This document shows, one piece after another, positions 1 through 40,504 of a stretch of 40,504 nucleotides of DNA. Origin of the DNA: a virus; IMG/VR virus record IMGVR_UViG_3300031841_004259, positions 1 through 40,504 of that record; one strand, written 5' to 3'. Numbering within the stretch: position 1 is the stretch's first letter; every line of letters begins with the position of its first letter. A program made the position numbers and the translations under genes. The notes beneath the pieces were generated by a model. That model was not told the DNA's origin. It made no database searches and was given only the letters and a program-made list of their open reading frames with translations.

Positions 1-1330
1 TTCCAGTGCCAGCTTCACTGACGACAACGTAATAGCCTTTGTTTGCTTCAGAAGCAGCAGGCAATGCCTGACCAACTACAAAGCTCAATGCAGTGCCTTC
101 AGCAGTAACAGTCGCCATCAGATTGGTGCTGGCGTTGTAAGTACCAGCAAGAACAATCTCACCGACGCTGATGCCAATTGGCTGCCAAACGTTTCCGTCC
201 CAGAGGAAATAATCTCCGGTAAGTGAGTTCAGGTGGGTTTGGCCAATAAACGCACCGCCAGCAGGTGTGGTCGTTGCAATCGTCGCCGTGGAACGATCAG
301 CAAGCTTTGCTGCTGTAATTGCATCACTTGCAATGCGAGCTGATGGGAAAGTTCCTGTTGTGATCTTCGCCGCGTCAAGATCCGGAATATCAGTCGCAAT
401 AAGCGATTCCGTACCAGTAATGTGCCCTTCAGTGTCAAACGTGACTTTTGCCGCAGTGCCGGCAGTGACTGCATTGTCGTGATTAAGTTCACCTGCAGCT
501 GTTACACCAAGGCCAGAGCCCGGTTTAACAACACCAATCGTGCTTGATGTGGCGACTGGAACGTCTGCAGCAATAATCGCTCGACCACCAGTGACCAAGC
601 CATTGGCGTCGTACTGAACAATATGGTTTTCAGTTGTTTCCGCCGTGACGGTGTTATCAATCGCGATCGTGTCCGAAGACATCGTCAAACCGTTGCCGTT
701 GACGATTACGCCACCTTTTGCGCCAGTCGTTGCAGTCGGTAAGTCAGCACCAGTAATGGCTCGATAACTAACCGCACCAGCATCACCTGATGGTCCTGCA
801 AGGAATTGAGCAGATGCACTCGTATTATCCAGCGTTGCGGTGATCGTTACGGTGTCATTGTCTGTTGTGGCGGTGATATTGACGATTCCAGTCGCGTCGC
901 CATCAACGGTGTTAATTGAACCGGCAGCACGAATATCTTTCCAATCAGACCCATCCCAGAGATAGATCTTGTCATCCCCCGAGTCATAGGCGAGCTGTCC
1001 ATCGAAAGCACCGCTATCCGGCAGCGAAGTGACAATGTCGACTGTTGACTCATTCGCCAGTTTTGCTGCAGTGACGGCATCAGCAGCAATTTGAGTCGTA
1101 TCAACAGCCCCATCAGCTAGTGCCGTTCCAGCAATATCACCTGCACTGAACAGAATCTTTGCGCCTGGGATGGTGTCGTCACTGATCAGCGTGACACCAT
1201 TGGCGATCAAGTCGCTGACCGTCAGCTTCTTGGTTTCGCTTGCGCTGTCGTCAACAACAGCTAAAACATCAGCTGCGACCAGATCAGATCCAGCAAGGGC
1301 GTTCAGTTCGCTGATTTTTAGGTCGGCCAT
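1..1330 (-). CDS. Tail fibre protein, N-terminal 443 codons (continues across the window junction)
   Basis: The frame opens with ATG at 1330-1328 and runs off the window at base 1 without a stop. The N-terminus (MADLKISELNALAGSDLVAA) is of a kind common in marine phage fibres. It is followed by low-complexity, Ala/Thr/Asp-rich repeats with recurring elements such as 'AAKLA', 'GAFxGQ' and 'LWDGxxW', typical of trimeric beta-structured fibres that bind the host surface. The frame continues exactly into the one entering at 40504, which would give a 589-residue protein. It lies at the distal end of the tail operon, after the tail tip and tail-tube-like genes. The receptor cannot be predicted. Confidence 0.8.
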   Translation of the reverse strand, partial: MADLKISELNALAGSDLVAADVLAVVDDSASETKKLTVSDLIANGVTLISDDTIPGAKILFSAGDIAGTALADGAVDTTQIAADAVTAAKLANESTVDIVTSLPDSGAFDGQLAYDSGDDKIYLWDGSDWKDIRAAGSINTVDGDATGIVNITATTDNDTVTITATLDNTSASAQFLAGPSGDAGAVSYRAITGADLPTATTGAKGGVIVNGNGLTMSSDTIAIDNTVTAETTENHIVQYDANGLVTGGRAIIAADVPVATSSTIGVVKPGSGLGVTAAGELNHDNAVTAGTAAKVTFDTEGHITGTESLIATDIPDLDAAKITTGTFPSARIASDAITAAKLADRSTATIATTTPAGGAFIGQTHLNSLTGDYFLWDGNVWQPIGISVGEIVLAGTYNASTNLMATVTAEGTALSFVVGQALPAASEANKGYYVVVSEAGTG

Positions 1331-18477: not shown

Positions 18478-19902
18478 TTAATAGAGCCTAATGCCTGTGC
18501 CCCTGCCGGCGTTGACGTAGAGCGGGTTCAGCTCACGCCAGACCAGATATCCTAGGGCATCGTTCATGTGATCATACCCGGCGTCTTTATCTGGCTCGCC
18601 TTTATCTGTGTAGCTTTGGAGCTCCAGCGATTCAATCGTGCGGATGCACTGCTGCGCGATCTGCAGCTTCACCTCGCCTTTGCCGTTCTCCAAAGCAGCT
18701 TGTACAGCAGCCACCCTGTCACGTACTGGAGGATTTGCTTTGGGAGACTGATTGCTAAAGCCATAAGATTCCAATATCTGAATATCAGTGCGTGTCGCGT
18801 TTGTGCTGCGGTTGCCGCCAGAAGCATCGGGGTAGATGTAGACCTTGCGGTGAGGATATCGCGACTTAATTTCTTTAGCAAGTGCGTCAGTATCGTGTGC
18901 ACCACTCACCTCATCGATGACATGCAGTTGCTTGTCGGTACGTATAGCAATGACAGCTGACATATTCGACACGTTGAAGTCAAGACCCACACGCAATGGT
19001 TCATCATCAAGGCCGATCGGCGGCTGGCAGACGTGCATCTCACGATTGAACCGGTCGTAGACAGCGCCGGTATTGAGATTGACGAATTGACCCTCCAGGT
19101 AAGCCTTGATCAGCTTCTCTGGGTAATTGGCCATCAGCGAGTCAATGAACCCGTCAGGCAGGTGTGGGTTGTCGGCAGTTCGTGCACGGATCAACCGGCG
19201 GTCAGGTGCCGTCTCGCGCTCAAATGTCTCCCAGGCCCAGCCGAATCCCTCAGGTGTAGTCGCTACATAGAACTGCTGCACATTGCCAGAACGCAAGCGG
19301 GCTAATGCCATGCGTGATGCCTGTTCAGCCGTTCGCTTATTTGTGGTGTCTACCTCGTCAAAGCCCACCGCGCAGAGGTTCTGGCCTCGGATCCTATTCC
19401 AAGTCTCCATCGTCCGCAGCAATATGGTGTGTTCGCCTTCTTTAAATTTCAGAACATATTCAGGTAACGGCGACACCCTGAAGTCATAGGGAAGATCAAT
19501 AGCCTCAAGTAGGTCATCCATCGACCGCACGAGGATGTCGCGCAGCATTGGTGCAACAGGCTCAAATATCGCTGACACGTAGCCAATATTGGCAGCTGCG
19601 ATATTGATGGCCTTAGCGCACAAGCCATATGTCTTACCGGCTCCAAAGCCTGACACCAGGCCGAGAATCCGATGTTCTTGATCCTCGCAGAATGCGGTCT
19701 GATGTGGCAGCAATGTGGCATTCAGTCGGTTTAAGACCTGTTCTGCAGACACGCCTTCATCATCTGGATCCGACAGGATCAAGCCATCTGTCACAGAGTC
19801 CAATATGCTCGGCACTTGATCTGATGTCCACTCATTCGCTATTTTATGCGTTGAATTCTCTGCAACTATGACGGATATCGGCGATTTCATCGCAACTGCC
19901 AC
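18478..19902 (-). CDS. Terminase large subunit
   Basis: Up to 474 residues. Walker A 'GFGAGKT' at about residues 86-92, Walker B 'GFDEVD', and the RNase H-like nuclease with 'GLDFNVSNMSAV', 'YPDASG' and a late 'DHMNDALGYLV' acidic motif. It cuts and pumps DNA into the prohead. The longest frame begins with GTG 19902 and overlaps the divergent sigma gene by 35 bases; ATG 19890 or a later GTG may be the true start, as no clear ribosome-binding site decides it. The likely small subunit is not adjacent but at 22237-22560. Confidence 0.93.
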   Translation of the reverse strand: MAVAMKSPISVIVAENSTHKIANEWTSDQVPSILDSVTDGLILSDPDDEGVSAEQVLNRLNATLLPHQTAFCEDQEHRILGLVSGFGAGKTYGLCAKAINIAAANIGYVSAIFEPVAPMLRDILVRSMDDLLEAIDLPYDFRVSPLPEYVLKFKEGEHTILLRTMETWNRIRGQNLCAVGFDEVDTTNKRTAEQASRMALARLRSGNVQQFYVATTPEGFGWAWETFERETAPDRRLIRARTADNPHLPDGFIDSLMANYPEKLIKAYLEGQFVNLNTGAVYDRFNREMHVCQPPIGLDDEPLRVGLDFNVSNMSAVIAIRTDKQLHVIDEVSGAHDTDALAKEIKSRYPHRKVYIYPDASGGNRSTNATRTDIQILESYGFSNQSPKANPPVRDRVAAVQAALENGKGEVKLQIAQQCIRTIESLELQSYTDKGEPDKDAGYDHMNDALGYLVWRELNPLYVNAGRGTGIRLY

Positions 19903-20431
19903 ACGGTATCCGCTGTTGACTCAGAATCAAGAGATCGAGCTTGGCCGGCGTATTCAAGCCTGGCTGCAGCACCCTGATCCACCGCCGTCAATCGTGCGCT
20001 CAGGCCGGCGTGCCCGTGATCAATTCGTATGTAGCAACCTGCGGCTGGTGATATCGGTAGCCAAGAAATATACATTCGCTATCAAAGGCACGCCACTCAC
20101 CTTCCAGGACTTGATCCAAGAAGGCACTCTAGGGTTACAACGTGCAGCCGAAAAATATGATCCTGAATGCGGCTACAAAATGTCAACTTATGCGTACTGG
20201 TGGATCAGGCAGGCCATCACCAGATGTATCGACACCAAGTCTTTGATGATCCACATCCCGAATGGCGCACGAAAAAAGCTGCAGGCCTACATGCAGGCAG
20301 CCGAAGAGGGTGGCAGCAAAGAAGAGATCTTGGAAAGAGCTTCCTTGCAACGGCGCGACATCCGCACAGTGCAGCAGGCAGCTATGTGCCAGAACGTAGG
20401 GGCACTCGATGCATTGGACGTGATGATCTGA
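19868..20431 (+). CDS. Short RNA polymerase sigma factor (regions 1.2-2, no region 4)
   Basis: 187 residues. Residues about 10-25 ('RYPLLTQNQEIELGRRIQAW') are region 1.2 of the cyanobacterial type. Region 2 follows ('SNLRLVISVAKKY', 'FQDLIQEGTLGLQRAAEKYD', 'STYAYWWIRQAITR'), including the -10 recognition helix. The last 50 residues look like a partial region 3, and the gene ends without the region 4 helix-turn-helix. It could recognise a -10-only promoter, as T4 gp55 does, or act as a modified or anti-competitor sigma. Divergent from the terminase gene. Confidence 0.88.
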   Translation: MTDIGDFIATATRYPLLTQNQEIELGRRIQAWLQHPDPPPSIVRSGRRARDQFVCSNLRLVISVAKKYTFAIKGTPLTFQDLIQEGTLGLQRAAEKYDPECGYKMSTYAYWWIRQAITRCIDTKSLMIHIPNGARKKLQAYMQAAEEGGSKEEILERASLQRRDIRTVQQAAMCQNVGALDALDVMI

Positions 20432-22826: not shown

Positions 22827-24743
22827 TCACTCGTCAGTGCCACAACGCCGCCAGATGTGCTTGAACGAGCCATTGAGCTTCTTGCGGCTCTTGTAGTACC
22901 CGCATGCAGTCAGGATGCGGTTGATCCGCACTAGCTCCCGTTGCGTCTGGCGTTCGATCGGCACCTCCAGCACGTGAGTCAACAGATCACTGCTGATAAC
23001 GTATTCGGTGGACCGGTACACCAGGTGCGACGAGATCTTCTCCAACCACGGGTCCTCTGCATACAGACCACGGTTGCGGTCATTGTTGATCTGGGTCTCG
23101 GCTTCATCTAGGAACCACTGCGTGCCCTTGAAATACTCGCGCTTCGCACTAGCCCAGATCCGATCGCGCAGCTGTTCGATCTTCTCGCTATTGATACGCT
23201 CCTCGACATTGAAGATCACAAAACGGCGGTTGCCGGTCTCATCACTGAAGAAACCATCCTTTTTATTGGTGGTGCCGCATAGGACGAAAGAACGCGGCCG
23301 TTCCTTGTGACCCTTGCCGTATGCCTCACGCACAAGGTCGGTCTTGCGAGTGATGAAATTCTTGAGGCCTGCACTGTCGCGGTTCTTGATGCCACCATCT
23401 AGTTCGCCCCACTCGCAGATCCACCGCATATGCAGGCCGGTAATATCGTCTGCATCTTTATTGGTCTTGATAAAACCCTCATAGAACCAGGCTTCTGATG
23501 CGAGGGTGTTGTAAAAGCGCGTCTTGTGGAGGTGCTGGTCACCAGCCAATATGTGCACAAAGCCGCATGGGCAGCCAGGTTCATAAATGCGGGCCACGCA
23601 AAAGACCAACCACTTGCGCAATGCCGAATTATCGAATTCAACAGCATGCGTGCCCAGGAGCTCACCTGCGATATTCTGCCAGACGGCATCATCTAACGGG
23701 TCATTGCACGACTCCAGGTAGTCACGGATCGGGTGGTAGGGCCGCTCACGTGCACTAAGCAGCAGAGCATCCTGCGCGACATCCTTAGAGACATCGATAT
23801 GCGCAGCCTGAAAGCTGCCATAACTCAGCTTGGCATCAATCTCCGACATCGGCGCACCATCGATCTCGATAGCCTGCTTTAGGTCGTTCCAACGCAGCGC
23901 ATCATGGAGCATCGACGAGAGTACCTTCGACAGGTCAAGCAGTTTCAGACGGCTATAACCACCCTTTTCCGTCTTGTAATCACCAATCCGCTCATACCAC
24001 GGCGCGACAGGCAATTGTGGCGCTTCCCGTCGGATGGCAAGTTCTATGCGTTCTCGGTCTGCGCCATCTACCACCCAGTCGGCCACGTCATAGCCATCAG
24101 ACGGGTCATCCCATGCATCCGCGTTCGTGCCTTCCACCCAGAGCCATGACGATCCAGGGAAGGCATCTCCGAGCCGCTGCATAAGCTCGACACCAGGCCG
24201 GTCACGATCAGGACATAACACCAGGTCATTGTCCTGCAGCTTCGGCATGTCAGGCATGCCACACTTCCAGCTGCCGCTACCGTTTGGCACACTGGTGACC
24301 CACAGGCCCAGGGCACGCAACGCCTCGGCGCAGGTCTCGCCCTCGACTACGTAGACCGTCTTGCCTGAATCCGGCAGGCTCTCATACCACAGCGGCAACA
24401 GCGTGTCTACCTTGGTGCCCTTAGACCAGGTGACATCTTTAGGGCCAACGTTGTAGTCGGTGCGGTTGTGCTGATATGACCGGCCATTGGGTGCAAAATA
24501 CTTCCACGACCGGTACTTCACCGCAGTGCGTTCTTGATGCGGCTTGAAGGTCACACATTCAGCAGTCGGGTTGATCTTCACACATGCCCACTCACCAACC
24601 ACATCACCGGTCTTGAGCTGCGGGTGCTTCTGGAATGGGCTGGTCTTGGTGCCTATGCGGCAATACAGCAAGTCTCCGTCCGTCTTACAGCCGCTAGACG
24701 TGCGACCGCATATAGGACAAGGAGTTTTTGCAGATGAATACAT
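22827..24743 (-). CDS. Replicative primase-helicase: zinc finger, TOPRIM, VirE-type helicase
   Basis: 638 residues. Residues about 9-30 hold a zinc-binding cluster ('CPICGRTSSGCK' and 'LLYC'). About 130-230 is a TOPRIM-like domain ('VYVVEGETCAEAL', 'LVLCPDRDRPGVELM'). About 340-570 matches the virulence-associated E / superfamily-3-like ATPase ('RKWLVFCVARIYEPGCPCG', 'LCGTTNKKDGFFSDETGNRR'). The P-loop position reads GDQHLHKT (about 400-407), with His where a Gly is usual. It primes and unwinds DNA for replication. No archaeo-eukaryotic PrimPol domain is visible, unlike cyanophage S-2L. Confidence 0.85.
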   Translation of the reverse strand: MYSSAKTPCPICGRTSSGCKTDGDLLYCRIGTKTSPFQKHPQLKTGDVVGEWACVKINPTAECVTFKPHQERTAVKYRSWKYFAPNGRSYQHNRTDYNVGPKDVTWSKGTKVDTLLPLWYESLPDSGKTVYVVEGETCAEALRALGLWVTSVPNGSGSWKCGMPDMPKLQDNDLVLCPDRDRPGVELMQRLGDAFPGSSWLWVEGTNADAWDDPSDGYDVADWVVDGADRERIELAIRREAPQLPVAPWYERIGDYKTEKGGYSRLKLLDLSKVLSSMLHDALRWNDLKQAIEIDGAPMSEIDAKLSYGSFQAAHIDVSKDVAQDALLLSARERPYHPIRDYLESCNDPLDDAVWQNIAGELLGTHAVEFDNSALRKWLVFCVARIYEPGCPCGFVHILAGDQHLHKTRFYNTLASEAWFYEGFIKTNKDADDITGLHMRWICEWGELDGGIKNRDSAGLKNFITRKTDLVREAYGKGHKERPRSFVLCGTTNKKDGFFSDETGNRRFVIFNVEERINSEKIEQLRDRIWASAKREYFKGTQWFLDEAETQINNDRNRGLYAEDPWLEKISSHLVYRSTEYVISSDLLTHVLEVPIERQTQRELVRINRILTACGYYKSRKKLNGSFKHIWRRCGTDE

Positions 24744-24851: not shown

Positions 24852-25202
24852 CTAGGAAAGGCAGGTAATAGCCTCGTCTTCGGAGTGCACCACACTCGCG
24901 ATGCCGCCATGCTCTTCGAGACGGTCCAGCCAGTGCTGCTGATCATCTCGTGCCTTCTCGCCAGGCACTTTGATCTCCATGCCTACAAATACTGCCAGGT
25001 CTTGGCCCACCATGTCCTCGGTGATCTGGACCCGCTTGTATCCCACCAAATCAGGGCTACCAGGTGACAGACCAAACTGCACATACTTACCCCGATTATC
25101 TCGCAACGCACCAGTGTGGTTCCGATAGAGTGTCACGCCTTCGCAGTTAGCACTGACCGCTAAGCGGATCTCATTCTGAAGGCGTGTCTCTGGCTGGACC
25201 AT
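24852..25202 (-). CDS. VRR-NUC domain endonuclease
   Basis: 116 residues. 'QPETRLQNEIRLAVSA' holds the first conserved Glu, 'LSPGSPDLVGYK' the metal-binding Asp, 'FVGMEIKVPGEKARDDQQ' the E-x-K core, and the final helix ends 'EDEAITCLS'. These are the motifs of stand-alone VRR-NUC phage nucleases of the PD-(D/E)XK class. It is probably used in processing recombination or replication intermediates. The ATG overlaps the upstream stop (TAATG). A 108-base gap before the primase gene holds no convincing gene. Confidence 0.88.
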   Translation of the reverse strand: MVQPETRLQNEIRLAVSANCEGVTLYRNHTGALRDNRGKYVQFGLSPGSPDLVGYKRVQITEDMVGQDLAVFVGMEIKVPGEKARDDQQHWLDRLEEHGGIASVVHSEDEAITCLS

Positions 25203-25844: not shown

Positions 25845-27110
25845 TTATTTCCATGTACGGTGGGTGCGACTACGTAGGACGTGATCCACCCACTTTGGAT
25901 GATACCCACGCTCAATGCGGATTCTTTCGAGATCCTCAATAGTGCGTGCCCGTCCGATATCACGGCGCATCTGCTTACGCTTCTGTTCTTTCTCCTGTAG
26001 TAGGATGTCGCGTTCCTCTGGAATCCGACTATCTAATGGGTGAGTGTATCCGCAAAATGGGCACATGCGCAAATGTGGTTTGTGTACTCCGAAGCATTGC
26101 GGGCAAACTCTTACCGGCACATTTGCAACCAATCCAGCCCGCTGTTTTAGCTGGCCTTTCAGCGACCACTGCCGGCTATCATCTGGCATACCGTGGCGTT
26201 CGCTATTTCCGGCTGCGTCGAGGATGACGGCATGCTGATCTGAAGGGCGCAACGCACGACCTACCTGCTGTAGGTATAAACCGAGAGACTGCGTAGGCCG
26301 CAGCAAGAGTACGCAATCGCAGGCCGGCACATCGAAGCCCTCGGAAATCAAATCGACACTGAGCAGTACCGTGATCTCGCCATCACGGAACTGGCGCACG
26401 GCCTCATCACGGCGGTCTTTACGCATCTTGCCATCGATCGTGGCGCATCTAATGCCTGCAGCTTTGAATTTGCGCTCCACTTCCTCCATATGAGCAACAC
26501 TTGCGCAGAAGCCAATTGTCTGGCGGCCACCAGCGAGCAGTAGCCAATTCTTTACAGCAGCGGCTACCACGCGTGTCTGTGATACAGCCTCAGATAATTG
26601 CTTGCGGTTGTAGTCACCGGCAGTGCGGCGCACACCTTTCAAATCGGCTGCACCAGGCGGGCAAAACAGCTTGTATTCAGACAGCCAGCCGTCATCGATC
26701 AGCTGTGCAGAGGTGGGGCCAACCACCATCTCATCAAAGACCACATCAAGACCACCGCCATCTAGCCGTTGCGGCGTGGCAGTGAATCCGAGGACCTTAG
26801 TACATTGCTGCAGTTTGTCTTTCCAGGTGCGTGCGCAGGCATGGTGCGCCTCATCGACGATCACTAGGTCCTCACCGTCAGGCTGCCACGACTGGATCGT
26901 GCAAACGCTCTCATCTGGCGTCTGATCTACAAGCTCACGACGGTGCACCAACACCTGCACACGGGCACCTTTGGCCCGCGCAGCATTGGCGATCTCACAG
27001 AAGATGCGGGTCTTGCCACCACCTGTTGGCAACACCGTCAATACCTTGTCATGCGACCGCATCGCCACCCTGGCACGGTGCAGGAGATCTAGCTGATAAG
27101 GACGCAGCAC
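25845..27110 (-). CDS. Superfamily 2 DEAD/DEAH-type helicase
   Basis: 421 residues. Motif I 'LPTGGGKT' (about 27-34), motif II 'VIVDEAHHA', motif III 'GFTATP', then C-terminal motifs 'SVDLISEGFDVPACD' and 'YLQQVGRALRP'. A C-terminal zinc-finger-like element ('CPQCFGVHK', 'CPFCGYTHP') follows. This is the RecQ/UvsW-like phage DNA helicase class (DUF-free SF2, also like RAD25-type). It probably remodels replication forks or recombination intermediates. Its transcript may start at the divergent promoter at 27178-27205. Confidence 0.9.
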   Translation of the reverse strand: MLRPYQLDLLHRARVAMRSHDKVLTVLPTGGGKTRIFCEIANAARAKGARVQVLVHRRELVDQTPDESVCTIQSWQPDGEDLVIVDEAHHACARTWKDKLQQCTKVLGFTATPQRLDGGGLDVVFDEMVVGPTSAQLIDDGWLSEYKLFCPPGAADLKGVRRTAGDYNRKQLSEAVSQTRVVAAAVKNWLLLAGGRQTIGFCASVAHMEEVERKFKAAGIRCATIDGKMRKDRRDEAVRQFRDGEITVLLSVDLISEGFDVPACDCVLLLRPTQSLGLYLQQVGRALRPSDQHAVILDAAGNSERHGMPDDSRQWSLKGQLKQRAGLVANVPVRVCPQCFGVHKPHLRMCPFCGYTHPLDSRIPEERDILLQEKEQKRKQMRRDIGRARTIEDLERIRIERGYHPKWVDHVLRSRTHRTWK

Positions 27111-27153: not shown

Positions 27154-27205
27154 TTGACATGCCTTGATATAGATGGTATTATACCTCTGTCGTTTCTTCT
27201 AGCAA
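27154..27205. promoter_or_regulatory. Back-to-back promoters sharing a palindromic -10
   Basis: Plus strand: TTGACA (27154-27159), 17-base spacer, TATTAT (27177-27182), serving the exonuclease gene with a leader of about 15 bases and no Shine-Dalgarno sequence. Minus strand: TTGCTA (27205-27200), 16-base spacer, TATAAT (27183-27178), pointing to the helicase. The palindrome GGTATTATACC (27175-27185) covers both -10 boxes. Confidence 0.65.
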
Positions 27206-28026
27206 TGAACAGCAAACCATGGCCCATCGACATGACACATGATGAATATCACAGTCTGAGTGCTATCGGCCGATCTGCGCTAATCACCTTTGGGCAGAGT
27301 CCTGCGCACTTCTGGCATCAATTCCTGAATCCTCGGGCCCAGTCCAAAGCACCGACACCAGCAATGCTATTTGGTGCTGCATTCCATGCCTACGTGCTGG
27401 AACCTCTGGAATACAAGCTCAAATATGTCGAGGCACCTAGCGCGAGCAAGGTGTCCAAGGCATATCGCCAGGCCGAGGAAAAGGCCACCGCAGAGGGGCA
27501 GACTCTGCTGCCAATGGGCACAAATGCACAATGCCACCAACTTTCGATGGCACTGCACGACCACTTGATGGCCCACAAGATCCTATCCGCTAAAGGATTT
27601 AAAGAAGCTACCTACCTCGCGACGTGCCCTGAGACAGATCTTGAGGTGAAATGCAGAGCTGACTGCATCACAGATTCGGGTTGGGTGGTCGATCTAAAGA
27701 CCACACAGAACGCGTCACCTGATGCGTTTACCAAGACCATTGCCAACTACCAGTACCACGTGCAGGCTGGCTTTTATCTGGACGTGATCGAGTGGGCAAC
27801 AGGCACCAGGCCTAAAGGCTTCTTATTCATCTGCATTGAAAAAGAAGCGCCCAATGCAGTGTCTGTTATCCGTGCATCTGACAGCATGATCGAAGCCGGT
27901 TCACGCCGCGCACGTGATCTGCTGAATCAGATGGCCGATTGCTTCAAGACGTTTGGGCCAGATCGACCCTGGCCTGCATATTCCCACGACATCGTGGAAG
28001 TGAACCTACCAGCTTGGGCATCATGA
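27205..28026 (+). CDS. PD-(D/E)XK exonuclease (RecE / exonuclease VIII type)
   Basis: 273 residues from ATG 27205; the longer frame begins upstream of the promoter and is rejected. 'MTHDEYHSLSAIGRSALITF' followed by 'MLFGAAFHAYVLEP' is the usual start of exonuclease VIII-like proteins. The catalytic core is 'CRADCITDSGWVVDLKTTQ' with Asp and D-x-K, then 'YQYHVQAGFYLDVIE'. Coupled (ATGA) to an ERF-type annealing protein, it makes a two-component recombination pair like RecE/RecT or lambda Exo/Beta. Confidence 0.9.
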   Translation: MNSKPWPIDMTHDEYHSLSAIGRSALITFGQSPAHFWHQFLNPRAQSKAPTPAMLFGAAFHAYVLEPLEYKLKYVEAPSASKVSKAYRQAEEKATAEGQTLLPMGTNAQCHQLSMALHDHLMAHKILSAKGFKEATYLATCPETDLEVKCRADCITDSGWVVDLKTTQNASPDAFTKTIANYQYHVQAGFYLDVIEWATGTRPKGFLFICIEKEAPNAVSVIRASDSMIEAGSRRARDLLNQMADCFKTFGPDRPWPAYSHDIVEVNLPAWAS

Positions 28027-28439
28027 GCAAAATCGTGGAGGCACTACTGGCATTCCATAAGAATGTCGGCCCGATCCGGGAGCTATCACAAGCTCAATAC
28101 GGACAGTATGCAGATCTACAGACCGTTCTAGCAGCTGTGACACCGCACCTGCTAGAGCAGGATCTTGTGATTTCACAGACGTTTCGCGGCAGCAATCTCG
28201 TGACCCAATTGATGCACATTTCTGGTGAGCAGATCGAGTCCGAGTCACCGCTAATGGTAGACGAGCAACGCAAAGGCAATGTCTTGCATGCTTGGGGTGG
28301 TGCCGTGACTTATCAGCGCAGGTACGCTCTGCTAGCCATACTTAACTTGGCAGCAGGTTGCCCTGATGACGATGCCGATCATGGTGATCATAAAATGACA
28401 AAGCAATCATCGAAGATCTCGGATGACGACTTCCTTTGA
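28023..28439 (+). CDS. ERF-family single-strand annealing protein
   Basis: 138 residues from ATG 28023 (ATGA overlap). The signature is 'VLHAWGGAVTYQRRYALLAI' with 'LNLAAGCPDDDADHGD' right after, the core of ERF recombinases. It has an N-terminal 'VEALLAFHKNVGPI' and 'LQTVLAAVTPHLLEQDL'. It anneals single strands made by the upstream exonuclease. It is shorter than many ERF proteins, with only a short acidic end after the core. Confidence 0.88.
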   Translation: MSKIVEALLAFHKNVGPIRELSQAQYGQYADLQTVLAAVTPHLLEQDLVISQTFRGSNLVTQLMHISGEQIESESPLMVDEQRKGNVLHAWGGAVTYQRRYALLAILNLAAGCPDDDADHGDHKMTKQSSKISDDDFL

Positions 28440-28644
28440 ATTCGACCCTGAGCAGCACTTAACGCCTGCTCAGTTGGTCGCACGTTGGGAAGATACACCA
28501 TTTCCCGTATCTCTAGTCACCCTGGCCCGGTGGCGTCGCGTCGCACGCGGACCCAAACACATCAAGGCCGGCCACTCTAGCCGCATCTATTACCCGATCG
28601 CGGCGGTCGTGGCCTACGAATCAACCCTGTCTCCTAATTTCTGA
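28423..28644 (+). CDS. Small helix-turn-helix protein (excisionase/AlpA-like)
   Basis: 73 residues. 'LTPAQLVARWEDTPFPVSLV' then 'TLARWRRVARGPKHIKAG' and 'RIYYPIAAVVAYE' is the winged-helix layout of MerR/AlpA-type DNA-binding proteins, which usually begin with 'LTPxELAxxW'. It overlaps the ERF gene by 17 bases and shares a base with the next start. A regulatory or recombination-accessory role is likely; no integrase is present for it to partner. Confidence 0.7.
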   Translation: MTTSFEFDPEQHLTPAQLVARWEDTPFPVSLVTLARWRRVARGPKHIKAGHSSRIYYPIAAVVAYESTLSPNF

Positions 28645-28940
28645 TGCCCGCTATCAACAGCAGCTTGTTCAAGAACGAACGCAAAGAACGCGACAACCAG
28701 CCTGATTTCACTGGACCTGGTCAAATCACCAAAGCCGATTTTATGGCTATGTATGACCAGGTAATCGCCAATCAATACAACGAAGACGACGAAGGCCGCA
28801 TTAAAGTGCGCGTCGCAGGCTGGAAAAAACAGTCCAAATCAGGCAAGGCATATATCAGCCTGTCGCTCAGCATCGACGATTATGGCGTGGAAGTCAAGCC
28901 CGCAGCTGCACCGTCCTCCACAGAAGGTGATCTTTTCTGA
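28644..28940 (+). CDS. SSB-like / DUF736-like protein with acidic tip
   Basis: 98 residues, start coupled by TGATG. 'SSLFKNERKERDNQPDFTGP' followed by 'IKVRVAGWKKQSKSGKAYIS' is the short OB-like strand pattern of DUF736 proteins. The end 'STEGDLF' is an acidic tip with a final Phe, as in single-strand binding proteins that recruit partners. It follows the recombination genes, in keeping with single-strand binding. It lacks the length of classic SSB. Confidence 0.6.
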   Translation: MPAINSSLFKNERKERDNQPDFTGPGQITKADFMAMYDQVIANQYNEDDEGRIKVRVAGWKKQSKSGKAYISLSLSIDDYGVEVKPAAAPSSTEGDLF

Positions 28941-29212
28941 TGTCTGACGCCACACCCCAAGCATCCCACTCTCACTGGTCAAACCAAAAACTTGTCAGTG
29001 AAGTAACTAAGCAGATCCGTCGTGATTATGGCGGCATTCACGGCGCAAGACATCTTGAGCAGCGTGCAGTCGATTTCGGGTTCAGCCCATCTATTGCTCG
29101 CCGTGTAGCTCAATTTGCATACATCGTGGCAGGCGAAGCGACCGATGGCTCACGCCGTCGCGTGCGCTCTAAATTGACTGAAATTCTTGACCGACTTGAA
29201 GCCAATGCGTAA
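28940..29212 (+). CDS. Unknown protein upstream of purZ
   Basis: 90 residues, coupled (TGATG) to the SSB-like gene. Helical and basic: 'LVSEVTKQIRRDYGGIHGAR' and 'SPSIARRVAQFAYIVAG', ending 'KLTEILDRLEANA'. The middle could be a helix-turn-helix. Its stop overlaps the purZ start by eight bases, so it is co-expressed with the Z cluster. No family recognised. Confidence 0.6.
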   Translation: MSDATPQASHSHWSNQKLVSEVTKQIRRDYGGIHGARHLEQRAVDFGFSPSIARRVAQFAYIVAGEATDGSRRRVRSKLTEILDRLEANA

Positions 29213-30287
29213 ACGTCACCTCATCATCGACGCGCAGTACGGCTCGACCGGCAAGGGCCTATACGCAGGCTTTCTGGCGCAGCACATCCAGTGCGACACG
29301 ATCGCATATGCACCGTCACCCAATGCAGGCCATACCCTGGTCTGGGACGGCAGCACGTACATCCACAAGATGCTGCCTAGCGGTATCACGTCTCCGATGT
29401 TGCAACAGATCGTGCTCGGTCCTGGCAGCCTGATCGATCTAGACCGGCTGGCTGGCGAAATCGGCGACCTATATGAACGGTTGCCTGAATTCCGCAATGT
29501 GCACATCTATGTACATCGGCATGCGGCCTGTGTCTACGACAGGCACCGCGAGGCCGAATCAGAAGGCGGCACCGCACCAGGCTCCACCAGGCAAGGTGTC
29601 GGCGCAGCTCAGATTGAGCGCATCCGGCGCAATCCGGAGCAGCTCAACACCATCAGCCAGGCAGATCACCCGGTGATGCGGTTCATCATCCCGGTTGATA
29701 CGGCCAAGATGCAACAGATCTATGCCGAGTCAGCCTCGTTGCTGATCGAGAGCTGCCAAGGCTATAGTCTGTCGATGTATCACGGGCAATATCCGTACAC
29801 CACCTGTCGTGATGTGACGGCTTCGTCGATCATGTCAGATACGGGTGTGCCCATGGCGAATGGCAGCCCCACGGTGCACGGCACATTCCGCACTTTCCCG
29901 ATCCGTGTGGCCAACAGGCCCGAGGCCGGAGAATGGAGTGGCCCCAGCTACCACGATTCAGCGGAGATTTCATTTGAGTCGATCGGCCAGCAACAGGAAC
30001 TCACCACGGTGACTAAGCTGCCACGGCGCATCTTCACCTGGAGCCAGCAGCAAGCGATGGAAGCTTGCTACCAAAGCAATATTCAGGTCGGCTTCCTGAA
30101 CTTTGCGCAATATCCAGTCCAGTACAAGCACCTGGTTGACACCTGGGAACGACTCAATGAATGCACCAATGTCCAATACCTCGGATTCGGACCGTCTCTC
30201 GCAGACATCTACCGGGTCGGCGCACCGGCTATCGAGGCTGATCGAATCAAAGCGATCTACCAGCGATATCGAGGAGCTGCAGGCTGA
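29205..30287 (+). CDS. purZ: Succinoaminodeoxyadenylate synthetase (PurZ, PurA family)
   Basis: 360 residues from ATG 29205; an earlier start at 29187 would overlap more of the upstream gene. Family reaction: dGMP + aspartate + ATP or dATP gives 2-amino-succinyl-dAMP, which host PurB converts to dZMP. The P-loop reads GSTGKG (residues 13-18), where PurA has GDEGKG, so the catalytic Asp of PurA is Ser14; this replacement marks PurZ. 'NAGHTLV' (40-46), 'PGSTRQGVG' and 'YPYTTC' match other PurA/PurZ motifs. First gene of the Z cluster. Confidence 0.93.
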   Translation: MRKRHLIIDAQYGSTGKGLYAGFLAQHIQCDTIAYAPSPNAGHTLVWDGSTYIHKMLPSGITSPMLQQIVLGPGSLIDLDRLAGEIGDLYERLPEFRNVHIYVHRHAACVYDRHREAESEGGTAPGSTRQGVGAAQIERIRRNPEQLNTISQADHPVMRFIIPVDTAKMQQIYAESASLLIESCQGYSLSMYHGQYPYTTCRDVTASSIMSDTGVPMANGSPTVHGTFRTFPIRVANRPEAGEWSGPSYHDSAEISFESIGQQQELTTVTKLPRRIFTWSQQQAMEACYQSNIQVGFLNFAQYPVQYKHLVDTWERLNECTNVQYLGFGPSLADIYRVGAPAIEADRIKAIYQRYRGAAG

Positions 30288-30549
30288 CATCGCCAGCTGG
30301 GCCGATGCCGTCAATCCAGACCGTGACGCAATGTCCACCATTGCCAAACTGTTGGAAGAGATCGGCGAGCTGATCGCATCAGAACGCATGTCAGATCCGA
30401 TGGAGCTGGCAGATGTAGCGATATTGGTGCTCGACTTATTCCACCTACAGCAGGTGGATATGCACCAAGCCGTCATGCGCAAGATGACCAAAAACCGTGC
30501 ACGCCGCTGGAAACGTCAAGACAATGGGGCCCTTTCACATGTCCAATAG
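30169..30549 (+). CDS. mazZ: MazG-family nucleotide pyrophosphohydrolase (MazZ)
   Basis: Family reaction, by analogy with S-2L: dGTP (or GTP) to dGMP (or GMP) plus pyrophosphate, feeding PurZ. The metal-binding residues fit MazG: 'LLEEIGEL' gives Glu63, Glu64 and Glu67, and 'MELADVAILVLDL' gives Glu79 and Asp82 (numbering from ATG 30169). The start is uncertain: ATG 30169 overlaps purZ by 119 bases, ATG 30157 or TTG 30103 are alternatives, and no ATG, GTG or TTG occurs in frame from 30172 to 30330. The conserved domain seems to begin near 'SDIEELQADIASWADAV'. The end overlaps datZ by 11 bases. Confidence 0.88.
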   Translation: MSNTSDSDRLSQTSTGSAHRLSRLIESKRSTSDIEELQADIASWADAVNPDRDAMSTIAKLLEEIGELIASERMSDPMELADVAILVLDLFHLQQVDMHQAVMRKMTKNRARRWKRQDNGALSHVQ

Positions 30550-31075
30550 GCATCAAGGCAAACTCGAAGGTGCCGCCACCTTCCTGCGTGCGAGCCACAT
30601 CTCTAGATGGGGCATTGTGCACACCGCCACCAGACAAAACATCGCGGAGCATATGTACCGCGTGTGGGTCCTGATCAGAGAATGGGGGCCGTCGATCCGG
30701 CTGCCTATCAATGAACAGGTACTGGCAGAAGAATGGGCATTAATCCACGATCTGCCCGAAATCCGGACAGGCGACATGCCGACACCGCACAAGACGCCAG
30801 AAGTCAAAGCCTGGCTCAATCAGCTTGAGTCTGACATCTTCCCACCGCTTGATGAGGTGCATAAGATGGAAAACGTGACAGCTGCCTTCTGCAAATTTTG
30901 CGACACCGCAGAATCGATTTTGTACCTCAAGATCAACGGCATCGGGCAGCATGCCATCGATGTGCGTGAGCTGTTAGCAGAGCAGATGTGGGATCGACTC
31001 CATAAGTCGCCCATTGATGCTGTATCGCAAGCCGCCCTGCACGGACTCTTCAACGACACTTACTGCAACACATGA
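30539..31075 (+). CDS. datZ: HD-domain dATP triphosphohydrolase (DatZ)
   Basis: 178 residues from ATG 30539; the longer frame begins with GTG 30497. Family reaction: dATP to deoxyadenosine plus triphosphate, emptying the A pool so that Z enters DNA. HD metal residues: His38 in 'AEHMYR', His70-Asp71 and Glu74 in 'LIHDLPEI', Asp122 in 'FCDTAES'. Trp24 and Ile26 ('SRWGIV') correspond, with an offset of four, to S-2L residues I recall as W20 and I22, the latter said to exclude 2-amino bases. Coupled to mazZ and to the next gene. Confidence 0.92.
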   Translation: MSNRHQGKLEGAATFLRASHISRWGIVHTATRQNIAEHMYRVWVLIREWGPSIRLPINEQVLAEEWALIHDLPEIRTGDMPTPHKTPEVKAWLNQLESDIFPPLDEVHKMENVTAAFCKFCDTAESILYLKINGIGQHAIDVRELLAEQMWDRLHKSPIDAVSQAALHGLFNDTYCNT

Positions 31076-31326
31076 CTTTCGAACAGGCCCAAGAGGCTAT
31101 CCGCCTGCGCAAGTGCGGCCACACCCCTATGTCTATTGCACGGTGTCTCACAGACGTCAGTACTGCCGACGTCATCGACTTTTTCGGTGAGCCATGGCCA
31201 AAGCACCCAGCCCACGGCGGCATGAGTCCTAACTTCTACCGCTGGCTGATGGATGACTGCGAATATACATGGCGACCCAGCAACCCCAATCCTAAGGACG
31301 CACCATGGTCACGAATTGTGAGATGA
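31072..31326 (+). CDS. Unknown 84-residue protein between datZ and a DUF1599 gene
   Basis: ATG 31072 overlaps the datZ stop and the gene's own stop overlaps the next start region. 'FEQAQEAIRLRKCGHTPMSI' suggests a short helix-turn-helix-like N-terminus; the rest is Trp/Pro-rich ('GEPWPKHPAHGG', 'EYTWRPSNPNPKD'). No family recognised. Co-expression with the Z genes is implied by the overlaps. Confidence 0.6.
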   Translation: MTFEQAQEAIRLRKCGHTPMSIARCLTDVSTADVIDFFGEPWPKHPAHGGMSPNFYRWLMDDCEYTWRPSNPNPKDAPWSRIVR

Positions 31327-31655
31327 GCACCCAGGAATTTGTCACACTTTGTGGCGATACCTGGGACGATATCACCCGTCTAACGCAAAGTAAAGGGCAT
31401 GAATATGCCAATAGCGACAACCAATTAGACAATTTCAGGCGACTCTCGAAGGCGCTTGGATTGGCTCCGGATGCCGTGTGCTTCGTCTACCTGACCAAGC
31501 ACATGGACGCGATCCAGAACCACATCCGAGAGCCAGAGAGGGCTAAATCAGAGCCCATCACCGGTCGCATTGACGACGCCATCCTCTATCTCCTTCTACT
31601 CAAAGCCATCTATTCATGCCAAAGTCCGCGGAAGACAGCTACTACGCAGCAATAA
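31323..31655 (+). CDS. DUF1599-like 'nucleotide modification associated' protein
   Basis: 110 residues from ATG 31323 (ATGA overlap); ATG 31305 is also possible. 'KGHEYANSDNQLDNFRRLSK' and 'VYLTKHMDAIQNHIRE', then 'EPITGRIDDAILYLLLLKAI', match the DUF1599 pattern (K-x(n)-Y, N-F, K-H and an Asp in the last helix). That domain family is named for its link to phage base modification and has an all-helical MazG-like look. It follows the Z cluster directly, so a part in nucleotide pools is plausible but not shown. Confidence 0.7.
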   Translation: MSTQEFVTLCGDTWDDITRLTQSKGHEYANSDNQLDNFRRLSKALGLAPDAVCFVYLTKHMDAIQNHIREPERAKSEPITGRIDDAILYLLLLKAIYSCQSPRKTATTQQ

Positions 31656-32500
31656 ATCGCGTACCGCTGCTGACAGCTACAGAGGAGATCCTGTGCGGCC
31701 GCAGAGTCCAAGCGATGATGCGGCTGCTAGAGGACAAGCCCAAAGGACCATACACTGCGCAAGAACAGCGCACGTTGCGATTCGGCAGGCGTGCTAAAGA
31801 GCGCATGATCTCAGCCAACTTGCGCCTGGTAGCCCATGTAGCCAAACGCAGCGCCCACCTTGCACAGACCATGACATTTATGGATATTGTGCAGGAGGGC
31901 AGCATTGGGCTGATCCGTGGGGTCGAGAAATTCGATCCAGAACGCGGCTACAAATTCAGCACTTATGCATACTGGTGGATCCGTCAAGGCATCAGTCGAT
32001 CGATACAAAAGCAGGACCGCGTAATGCGGCTGCCTGTTAATCATCTTGACAGCTTGACCAAACTGCGCAAATGGGCAGCACAGTTTCATGAAGCCAATGA
32101 CAGGGCTCCTACGACACAAGAGTCAGCCGAGTATCTGGGCATGGAGCCTGAGCAGCTGGCGTTGCTGCTTGAGCGATATCCCAGGATGGCCAGCCTGCAC
32201 ACGCAAATGAGTGATGACGGCGGCGCACAACTTATCGACATCATCCCAGATCACGAGCAGAAAGACGCACTCGAAGAATCTGCTGAACGGCAGCTAATCG
32301 ACAAGGCGTGCAGAGTCATTGAGAAGCTGCCTGAAAAAGAACGCGTGGTGGCATCTATGGCTTACGGCTTAGATGGCTACGCTTTAAGTACGTTGCAAGA
32401 GATAGCTACGGCAGAATCTGTCTCTAGAGAGGCAGTGCGGCAACGTCTACTGCGTATCAACAACAAGATGCGCCGTCAACTGAACTTCGTGGCAAGCTGA
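31616..32500 (+). CDS. Complete RNA polymerase sigma-70-type factor
   Basis: 294 residues. Region 1.2 ('RVPLLTATEEILCGRRVQAM'), region 2 ('SANLRLVAHVAKRS', 'FMDIVQEGSIGLIRGVEKFD', 'STYAYWWIRQGISRSIQ'), region 3 ('LRKWAAQFHEANDRAPTTQE'), and region 4 with helix-turn-helix ('LQEIATAESVSREAVRQRLL'). This is the group 2 or 3 cyanobacterial layout. It probably redirects host polymerase to middle or late phage promoters. The start ATG 31616 overlaps the DUF1599 gene by 40 bases. Confidence 0.93.
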   Translation: MPKSAEDSYYAAINRVPLLTATEEILCGRRVQAMMRLLEDKPKGPYTAQEQRTLRFGRRAKERMISANLRLVAHVAKRSAHLAQTMTFMDIVQEGSIGLIRGVEKFDPERGYKFSTYAYWWIRQGISRSIQKQDRVMRLPVNHLDSLTKLRKWAAQFHEANDRAPTTQESAEYLGMEPEQLALLLERYPRMASLHTQMSDDGGAQLIDIIPDHEQKDALEESAERQLIDKACRVIEKLPEKERVVASMAYGLDGYALSTLQEIATAESVSREAVRQRLLRINNKMRRQLNFVAS

Positions 32501-32871: not shown

Positions 32872-33390
32872 TCAAGCTACTGATGGCATTACTGTCGAGT
32901 GGTTGTTGTAATGTCCTACATTTGCATAGCTTTTAAGCGGCGTACTGGACATGGTGTGGAACACCATCTGGCCGATCTTGAGGCCTGGAAACAGCGGCAA
33001 CGGATGATGCAATCGCACATTTTTTAGCTCCAGTGTCAGACGGCTGCCGTGCCACCCAGGATCGCACCATCCGGCGAGCATATGCTGATAACCTGCTCTG
33101 GCTCGGCTGGATTTAAGGACGAATTGTGCTGACAGATCTTCTGGCAAATTGAATGTCTCTTTGGTTTCTGCTAAGCAGAATTCACCAGGCTGCAGCAAAT
33201 ATGGATCAGTCTCGCTGTTGTGTGAAATATTGATCCGCACAAATTCAGGTTGATAAATGCTTTCGATCATCAGCTGGTCTCCTAGAAGAACGTCTAGGGA
33301 TGCTGGGTTAATCAATTCTTCATCAAAAGGAGTAACCATTTGACTTTTTTGGCATCTTGCCTTGATCTCCCAATCACTCAATACCGGCAT
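32872..33390 (-). CDS. dcd: dCTP deaminase (Dcd/dUTPase superfamily)
   Basis: 172 residues. 'LINPASLDVLLGD' (substrate loop), 'VLKSSRARAG' (the S-R-x-R catalytic site), 'GWCDPGWHGSRLTLELKNV' (with the catalytic Glu) and 'PLFPGLKIGQMVFH' are the family motifs in the right order. Known role: dCTP to dUTP, a step toward thymidylate. It would help the phage rebalance pyrimidine pools while the Z cluster reshapes purine pools. Bifunctional dCTP deaminase/dUTPase cannot be excluded. Confidence 0.9.
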   Translation of the reverse strand: MPVLSDWEIKARCQKSQMVTPFDEELINPASLDVLLGDQLMIESIYQPEFVRINISHNSETDPYLLQPGEFCLAETKETFNLPEDLSAQFVLKSSRARAGYQHMLAGWCDPGWHGSRLTLELKNVRLHHPLPLFPGLKIGQMVFHTMSSTPLKSYANVGHYNNHSTVMPSVA

Positions 33391-33412: not shown

Positions 33413-33610
33413 TTACTTAATACTCTCAAGAACACGTTTTTCAGCGGCATAAGCACCTTGTTGATACATCTCAGCAGCATCCCGCATCCAGGGTACAAGC
33501 CAGTCATTGACTTGCGAACACTGATCCCAATTCACAGGCTTAGCGCACTGCACAACAACAGTCATCCAAAAAGCACTGATAAAAGCCCAGACCGAATAGA
33601 CCTCACTCAT
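33413..33610 (-). CDS. Small protein with N-terminal membrane segment (65 aa)
   Basis: 65 residues, starting eight bases inside the upstream peptidase gene. Residues about 6-22 are hydrophobic ('YSVWAFISAFWMTVVVQC'), so it is exported or membrane-anchored, with a charged helical tail containing a second Cys. Placed after a peptidase and holin-like genes, it may belong to the lysis set, for example as a spanin-like part, but there is no clear lipobox. Function unproven. Confidence 0.55.
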   Translation of the reverse strand: MSEVYSVWAFISAFWMTVVVQCAKPVNWDQCSQVNDWLVPWMRDAAEMYQQGAYAAEKRVLESIK

Positions 33611-34349
33611 TGACGAGAATCATCCATCCCGTTCCAGACCCTTCAGCTTGCCAACGCTGGTAAAACGCAGCCTGTCTCACCCGGACGTTGCGTCCACGGT
33701 GCGGGTTTGAATGCCCGCCTTTTTCCATTTCGGGATAGCCGCGAGGGTCCTGCATGATCCATTCTGGATCGCTGCTGTTCTTCCCTGCATAACCACTAAT
33801 CACACTCCAGTGACCGCATCCCAAGCCATTGCACATCGGTGGTTCACCTAGCAGCATATTGCCAGCATGAAGCCAACCCACTAGTACGGGTCTGCCGTTT
33901 TCAATTTCCAGTTCCACCATTTCAGCGGTTCCGTCCTTGTGAAATTCAGCCTGCAGACCAAGACTCTGCAGTGCTGCTAGATGTGCTTCTACTGACGTGG
34001 TGTCTCCAAACTTTGCGCGGATCTCGTTGTATTCATCATCCGTCGTAACTTTTTTGTAATAGGCTGCCACCATGGCTGCGGCTGAACTAAAACACTCCCT
34101 GTATCCGGTGCCGGTCTTGTTGTCAAGCTGGGTGAAGTAGGGCATGTAGATCTGTTGATCAAACCCACTTTCCTTCCAAGCCTGGAACCAGTCTGCATCC
34201 TCCGCCAATAATTCCTGCGGCACAGACTGTTCAAGCTCCTTAATCGCAGCCAGCTGATGGGGCGTACCACGGAAAAATTGGAAGAATGGAAGAAGAGCAA
34301 AGGCCATGCCAATTGATAGCAGAATCAGTTGGATAATGCCAGACGCCAC
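33603..34349 (-). CDS. Membrane-anchored C39-like cysteine peptidase
   Basis: 248 residues, GTG start at 34349 directly after the upstream stop. Residues about 4-26 are a membrane anchor ('IIQLILLSIGMAFALLPFF'). The papain-like domain follows: Cys in 'GYRECFSSAAAMVAAYY' (about residue 86), His in 'GCGHWSVISGY', and Asp in 'WIMQDPRGYPEM'. Substrate unknown; a role in lysis (signal-anchor type peptidase) or in trimming envelope proteins is possible. It sits between holin-like and small exported genes. Confidence 0.75.
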   Translation of the reverse strand: MASGIIQLILLSIGMAFALLPFFQFFRGTPHQLAAIKELEQSVPQELLAEDADWFQAWKESGFDQQIYMPYFTQLDNKTGTGYRECFSSAAAMVAAYYKKVTTDDEYNEIRAKFGDTTSVEAHLAALQSLGLQAEFHKDGTAEMVELEIENGRPVLVGWLHAGNMLLGEPPMCNGLGCGHWSVISGYAGKNSSDPEWIMQDPRGYPEMEKGGHSNPHRGRNVRVRQAAFYQRWQAEGSGTGWMILVNE

Positions 34350-40065: not shown

Positions 40066-40504
40066 CAGGCTGCACTCCCAACATAAGCTCCGTACAGCGT
40101 AGTTGAGAGCTGCCAGAACACAAGGACGTCATTTGCGGTCAATGTTGGAGCGGTGTTGCCGTCCGATGTGACCCAAGTAATTGTCGGCCACGTCACTGTG
40201 TAGCTGGCTCCGTTAATCAAATGCAGGACAAGTGATTGCCCGTCTTCCAGTGATTCTGTGAACGTAGTGTTGGCAGCCAGCGTTTTGATTTGTACTGAGC
40301 CAGCATCTGGGTCGAGATCAGTACCCGTCAGCGTTGACGTTGCTTCCTTGATTTCAGCAAGCGTTGTTTGACCCGTAATCGCAAGAGTCGAATCAAGCGT
40401 TGTCGCTCCAGTAACGTCCAGCGTTCCAGGGACATCAATGTTGCTCGCAAACTCGACGCCCGTTCCAGCAGAATCTGTTTGCAGCAGTTGACGTGCTGTG
40501 CCGT
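40065..40504 (-). CDS. Tail fibre protein, C-terminal 146 codons (continues from base 1)
   Basis: The frame enters at 40504 and ends with TGA 40067-40065. Joined to base 1 it gives AAC (Asn) across the junction and then 'GTARQLLQTDSAGTGVEF', with 'NIDVPGTLDVTGATTLDSTL' soon after: a well-known fibre pattern. The end ('LTANDVLVFWQLSTTLYGAY') is a compact beta domain. Together with 1-1330 this would be one 589-residue fibre. Its stop overlaps the propeller start. Confidence 0.8.
   Translation of the reverse strand, partial: GTARQLLQTDSAGTGVEFASNIDVPGTLDVTGATTLDSTLAITGQTTLAEIKEATSTLTGTDLDPDAGSVQIKTLAANTTFTESLEDGQSLVLHLINGASYTVTWPTITWVTSDGNTAPTLTANDVLVFWQLSTTLYGAYVGSAA

Follow-up and report, generated by a model that had tools for sequence, protein, structure and literature searches.

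Cyanophage S-2L, in which 2-aminoadenine (Z) takes the place of adenine, was described in 2021 as the sole representative of its clade of Z phages (PMC8342488, PMC8065100), and no later report of a second member was found in the literature searched. The triad of PurZ, MazZ and DatZ lets S-2L reach full replacement of A with a polymerase lacking selectivity for Z, DatZ removing the dATP (PMC8065100). The only possible polymerase of S-2L is its PrimPol, in which an AEP domain is fused to a helicase domain (PMC8065100). When the S-2L triad alone was placed in E. coli, host enzymes put Z into DNA, at 12% of plasmid A and 4% of chromosomal A, and Klenow polymerase did not discriminate between A and Z (PMC8342488). 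The Z phages phiVC8 and SH-Ab 15497 also have PurZ, a MazG-like enzyme and DatZ in one linked cluster, accompanied by a PolA (DpoZ); the MazG-like enzyme is of the MazZ-2 type in phiVC8 and SH-Ab has a longer fused protein. PurZ0 phages (Wayne, Ghobes) likewise use a PurA-derived enzyme for dZ synthesis, with DutZ/DmtZ/DUF5664 standing in for DatZ and MazZ (PMC12884076).

The window analysed here is a stretch of viral DNA of 40,504 nucleotides, the whole of IMG/VR record IMGVR_UViG_3300031841_004259. Between positions 29205 and 31075 it carries purZ, mazZ and datZ on the plus strand, in the S-2L order with mazZ in the centre, and the initial annotation was correct in describing three consecutive, overlapping genes. 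Very probably this is an S-2L-type Z cluster, by which dZTP would be made and dATP destroyed, and with which a polymerase of the host would most likely synthesize the Z-DNA. The gene set had also been called complete. This holds for the S-2L triad only, as neither a Z-selective DpoZ nor the S-2L PrimPol is present in the window. The Z genes and their neighbours are listed in Table 1.

Table 1. Predicted genes of the Z block and surrounding regions of the window. Percentages are protein identities to S-2L.
Feature	Position	Strand	Evidence and remarks
Second sigma-like protein, short, regions 1.2 and 2 only	19868-20431	+	Oriented divergently to the terminase gene; a relative of the S-2L short sigma gene
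Zinc-finger/Toprim-type primase fused to VapE-type SF3 helicase	22827-24743	-	PF05272, E 2.9e-53; stands in place of S-2L PrimPol
VRR-NUC nuclease	24852-25202	-	PF08774, E 8.1e-9; 51%
SF2 helicase (RadD-like)	25845-27110	-	PF00271, PF04851; 46%
Exonuclease VIII-like (PD-(D/E)XK)	27205-28026	+	PF12684, E 3.4e-30; 34%
Erf-like single-strand annealing protein	28020-28439	+	PF04404, E 2.7e-15; 32%
Possible SSB, related to S2L_25	28644-28940	+	phrog_7364, E 4.3e-5; 39-40% to S2L_25
purZ, putative 2-amino-succinoadenylate synthase	29205-30287	+	360 aa; ATG 29205; NF038379; PDB 7odx; S-2L clade; active-site residues
mazZ, putative MazZ-1 type (d)GTP diphosphohydrolase	30238-30549	+	PF04447; PDB 7ody; metal ligands; start codon uncertain
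datZ, putative HD-domain dATP triphosphohydrolase	30539-31075	+	178 aa; phrog_7076; PDB 6zpa; 15 positions
Small gene	31072-31326	+	Adjoins datZ in all of the window's branch; not present in S-2L
Small all-alpha protein	31305-31655	+	phrog_6802, E 6.9e-15; near the Z cluster in all of the window's branch; not present in S-2L
Sigma-70 factor, cyanobacterial RpoD type	31616-32500	+	TIGR02997; PF04542, PF04539, PF04545; end of the overlapping run
dCTP deaminase	32872-33390	-	In the window's closest relatives, not in other clade branches
Papain-like C70/C39 peptidase domain, in a phage endolysin family protein	33603-34349	-	

The window PurZ was matched by the NCBIfam PurZ model NF038379 with an E-value of 1.1e-87 and a score of 294 bits, which lies just below the curated cut-off of 300 (S-2L PurZ scores 350 bits), and PurA models reached 148 bits at best. 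Its best solved structure was the S-2L enzyme (PDB 7odx, E 7e-103), and among annotated phages S-2L was by far the nearest, with 50% identity. The positions singled out by the crystal-structure studies (PMC8342488, PMC8065100) were checked in an alignment with E. coli PurA and the S-2L, phiVC8, SH-Ab 15497 and Wayne enzymes. The S-2L residue was found at 32 of the 33 positions, the exception being C204, which is replaced by Thr. The catalytic Asp of PurA is a Ser in the window (S14, corresponding to S23 in S-2L) and the residues of the dGMP pocket are kept. Also retained are the valine excluding a ribose 2'-OH, the TTVT loop, and the Gln that, being polar, makes G and Z unfavourable in the ATP site; the GSTGKG motif is present. 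In a maximum-likelihood PurZ tree, the window fell inside a 25-row S-2L clade with support of 100/100, separate and far from a PurA outgroup made up of two sequences, none of them archaeal. The PurZ0 phages formed a separate branch, and the S-2L clade itself was divided between S-2L with two further loci (L049 and L050) and a larger branch that holds the window. The PurZ identity proposed from the P-loop motif is supported by the structure match, the clade and the active-site residues.

The other two identities, also proposed from motifs, were upheld by profile and structure matches. MazZ was matched by PF04447, the dATP/dGTP pyrophosphohydrolase family, with an E-value of 9.5e-7, and its best solved structure was S-2L MazZ (PDB 7ody, E 2.5e-29), to which it is 57-60% identical. 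The EExxE and ExxD motifs are present, the MazZ-1 metal ligands E34, E35, E38, E50 and D53 are identical, and I56, D60 and R83 are retained, together with N20, which contacts the guanine. No ATG, GTG or TTG was found near the expected start, where S-2L MazZ begins, in the window or its closest relatives. Translation may begin at CTG 30238, a site occupied by TTG in L008 and L011-L013, or at an ATG further upstream, where the frame overlaps purZ. Throughout the subgroup, the mazZ frame extends without a stop codon well upstream into purZ (30100-30300 on the plus strand of the window). In the case of DatZ, the match was to phrog_7076 (phage dATP triphosphohydrolase, E 1.9e-19), with the protein also belonging to the YfbR and HD families. 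S-2L DatZ was its best solved structure (PDB 6zpa, E 2.3e-48) and, at 53% identity, by far its nearest counterpart among annotated phages. The S-2L residue was present at all 15 published positions checked; the metal ligands H34, H66, D67, E70, D75 and D119 are kept, and so are the specificity residues W20, I22 and P79, which include the Trp/Ile pair noted initially alongside the HD residues. The datZ start is more likely ATG 30539 than GTG 30497.

The Z genes overlap one another and both flanking genes, within a plus-strand run of overlapping genes that extends from about 27205 to 32500. This run encodes, in order, the exonuclease, Erf, three small proteins (one of them SSB-like), PurZ, MazZ, DatZ, the products of two small genes and the sigma factor. 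The exonuclease, Erf and the SSB-like protein are shared with S-2L, as are the VRR-NUC nuclease, the SF2 helicase and the helicase half of the VapE-type protein; the two genes after datZ are additional to the S-2L arrangement. The sigma factor was matched by TIGR02997 with an E-value of 1.5e-74 and 251 bits, not reaching the curated cut-off of 384.5. The product of the gene at 31305 displays the signature KGxEYA...GRIDDAILYL and is weakly related to proteins of Microcystis phage Mel-JY34 and Rhodothermus phage RM378. A MazG-like identity was considered for it and set aside, as its predicted model had no significant PDB match and no Pfam hit was obtained; the gene is a candidate for an accessory enzyme. 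Overlapping divergent promoter-like sites (TTGACA-17-TATTAT on the plus strand and TTGCTA-16-TATAAT on the minus strand) lie at 27154-27205, before the run from exonuclease to sigma factor, at a frequency not above chance over the region. No tRNA genes or Rfam families were found in the window.

The Z block recurs in about 25 further IMG/VR contigs of the S-2L clade and is therefore no assembly accident. PurZ, MazZ and DatZ are adjacent and in the same order in those clade contigs with enough sequence. Two scans of bacterial genome contigs, one with PurZ and one with an S-2L-clade alignment, gave no cellular or prophage copies, and megablast of window positions 18001-40504 against phage records gave no match.

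In its replication module the window differs from S-2L (MW334946), with a Toprim-type primase in place of the AEP PrimPol. The C-terminal half of the protein at 22827-24743 is 46-50% identical to the helicase half of S-2L PrimPol. Its N-terminal half contains a cysteine cluster and the Toprim-type motifs EGE and DRDRPG, and the N-terminus was matched by phrog_239 (DNA primase/helicase, E 2.5e-12); no AEP similarity was found in the protein. The Toprim assignment is drawn from motifs and profiles, the predicted model of the VapE protein having a pLDDT of only 35, and the match of Pfam Toprim_2, in the relative L031, reached an E-value of only 0.066. On the same PurZ branch, L041 has an S-2L-like AEP and L040 and L044 have a PF09250 Prim-Pol. 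The primase module is therefore exchanged next to a constant Z cluster, and all three kinds, S-2L-like AEP, PF09250 Prim-Pol and Toprim type, occur joined to VapE-like helicases.

Searches of the window and of the related contigs G002, G007 and G008 for PolA, Prim-Pol, RepB-type primase and Pol III alpha gave no match in any of them. As controls, PolA and Prim-Pol were both detected in phiVC8, and PolA (PF00476) was found in the L017 contig as well. The remaining larger ORFs of the window gave no match to a polymerase family. Like S-2L, the window has no DpoZ, and as judged from these searches the genome appears to encode no DNA polymerase.

The S-2L-like Z and replication block is joined to a different, marine virion module. 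The major capsid protein is 84% identical to that of Cyanophage KBS-S-2A (of Synechococcus WH7803) and 71% to those of Prochlorococcus phages, and the portal 76% and 59%, respectively; identity of both proteins to S-2L is only 25-30%. A cyanophage outer-membrane-like domain (PF24653) and the cyanobacterial RpoD-type sigma factor agree with a cyanophage placement, and the virion relatives point to marine Synechococcus/Prochlorococcus as the probable host. KBS-S-2A, S-H1 and P-HS2/MED4-117 share these virion proteins (major capsid 71-84%, portal 59-76%) and, like the window, have no PolA. Unlike the window, they have no PurZ and no match to the VapE-type primase-helicase, and they avoid A-containing palindromes. 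The high G+C content attributed to S-2L was correct (69.4%, compared to 51.7% in the window), and with virion genes of marine Synechococcus/Prochlorococcus siphoviruses the window does represent the clearly different Z phage of cyanobacteria that had been proposed. Its Z proteins are only 50-60% identical to those of S-2L and 28-39% to those of phiVC8 and SH-Ab 15497. Window positions 1-1330 and 40068-40504, both on the minus strand, come from a single tail-fibre gene, of which they hold the N-terminal and C-terminal portions; L125 and L126 have both portions in the same frame, separated by about 600 nt. Because both ends belong to one gene, the record is a nearly complete genome, lacking about 0.6 kb within that gene.

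If Z protects A sites, restriction would no longer select against A-containing palindromes and would still select against those of G+C only. Observed/expected ratios of 6-base palindromes in the window were 0.88 for the A-containing class and 0.52 for the G+C-only class. In this comparison, which was devised after the data had been seen and uses few controls, ratios for A-containing palindromes ranged from 0.80 to 0.96 in eight Z-cluster cyanophage sequences as compared to 0.50-0.78 in nine ordinary cyanosiphoviruses (Mann-Whitney p 4e-5; p 0.003 when each lineage is represented once). PolA-bearing Z phages, represented by partial genomes, mostly displayed the same contrast between classes (SH-Ab 15497, 0.97 vs 0.44; phiVC8, 0.85 vs 0.15), and S-2L showed little avoidance of either class. 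Weak avoidance of A-containing palindromes provides indirect support, not proof, for Z in the virion DNA, and the contrast is a possible sequence fingerprint of Z-DNA. Across Z-cluster loci L015-L104, from many hosts, G+C-only palindromes were avoided much more than A-containing ones.

In the mechanism we propose, MazZ would convert dGTP to dGMP, and PurZ would join dGMP to aspartate, with ATP or dATP, to give the succino intermediate from which host PurB and nucleotide kinases would complete dZTP. DatZ would degrade dATP to deoxyadenosine, and any polymerase copying T would therefore meet dZTP and not dATP. Because the phage appears to be without a polymerase and has a Toprim-type primase-helicase, it is most likely the host cyanobacterial polymerase that would make the 2-aminoadenine DNA, the choice of Z coming entirely from control of the nucleotide pool. 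The enzyme activities, the use of a host polymerase and the replacement of A in virion DNA, whether full or partial, are what we infer from the genes described above. By analogy with the E. coli experiment, the phage would be a natural case of the design that combines the triad with host enzymes.

Points against the proposed reading are the PurZ score just short of its cut-off, the missing piece of the tail-fibre gene, the ORFs without an assigned function and the post hoc design of the palindrome comparison. Since the triad alone gave only 12% and 4% in E. coli, synthesis by the host alone may also be incomplete. It is conceivable, if rather unlikely, that the triad works and that host polymerases use leftover dATP, giving virion DNA of variable A/Z content. 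The figure of 22.7% of new plasmid A obtained with the S-2L triad alone in E. coli after correction (PMC8342488) agrees with such a mixture, as does the lack of a Z-selective DpoZ in the window. However, S-2L is fully replaced with a non-selecting polymerase since DatZ removes dATP (PMC8065100), the window DatZ is intact, and A-containing palindromes are avoided as weakly as in known Z-bearing phages. It is improbable that the phage has an unrecognised polymerase of its own, in an unassigned ORF or in the N-terminal half of the protein encoded at 22827-24743. The primase-polymerases found at the same place in L040, L044 and L041 lend this some plausibility, and several ORFs are without assignment, but that N-terminus has Toprim-type motifs and a primase profile rather than an AEP, the large ORFs are otherwise assigned, the searches described above gave no match to a polymerase family, and the virion relatives KBS-S-2A, S-H1 and P-HS2 also do without PolA.

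All three families have ordinary cellular members, and the genes could in principle tune host purine pools in PurA-, MazG- and YfbR-like roles, leaving the virion DNA ordinary. We regard this as very unlikely given the Ser in place of the catalytic Asp and the dGMP-specific residues of PurZ, W20, I22 and P79 of DatZ, I56 and D60 of MazZ, the position of the window within PurZ in the tree and the way purZ, mazZ and datZ stay together throughout the clade. An assembly chimera, in which an S-2L-like block was joined to a KBS-S-2A-like virion block, is suggested by the different nearest relatives of the two halves and is refuted by independent contigs. The L006 contig G002 (43.9 kb) has both halves, with 94-99% protein identity over most genes, G007 and G008 carry both at 40-82% identity, L009 runs from terminase into purZ, and many others share the arrangement; the chance of a chimera is negligible.

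The reading of a Z cluster served by a host polymerase can be extended, with only modest confidence, to a marine picocyanobacterial lineage with wholly ZTGC-DNA and no polymerase of its own. Here an unmodified host replisome would be steered by the nucleotide pool, and the Z cluster would travel intact among virion and primase modules of unrelated kinds. With the window and its relatives the clade becomes broad and takes in the marine Synechococcus/Prochlorococcus phage type, with the phage polymerase apparently removed. Such phages would offer a natural test of whether the replication machinery of a cell is able to produce an entire Z genome once its dATP has been degraded, a question that bears on building organisms with Z-DNA.
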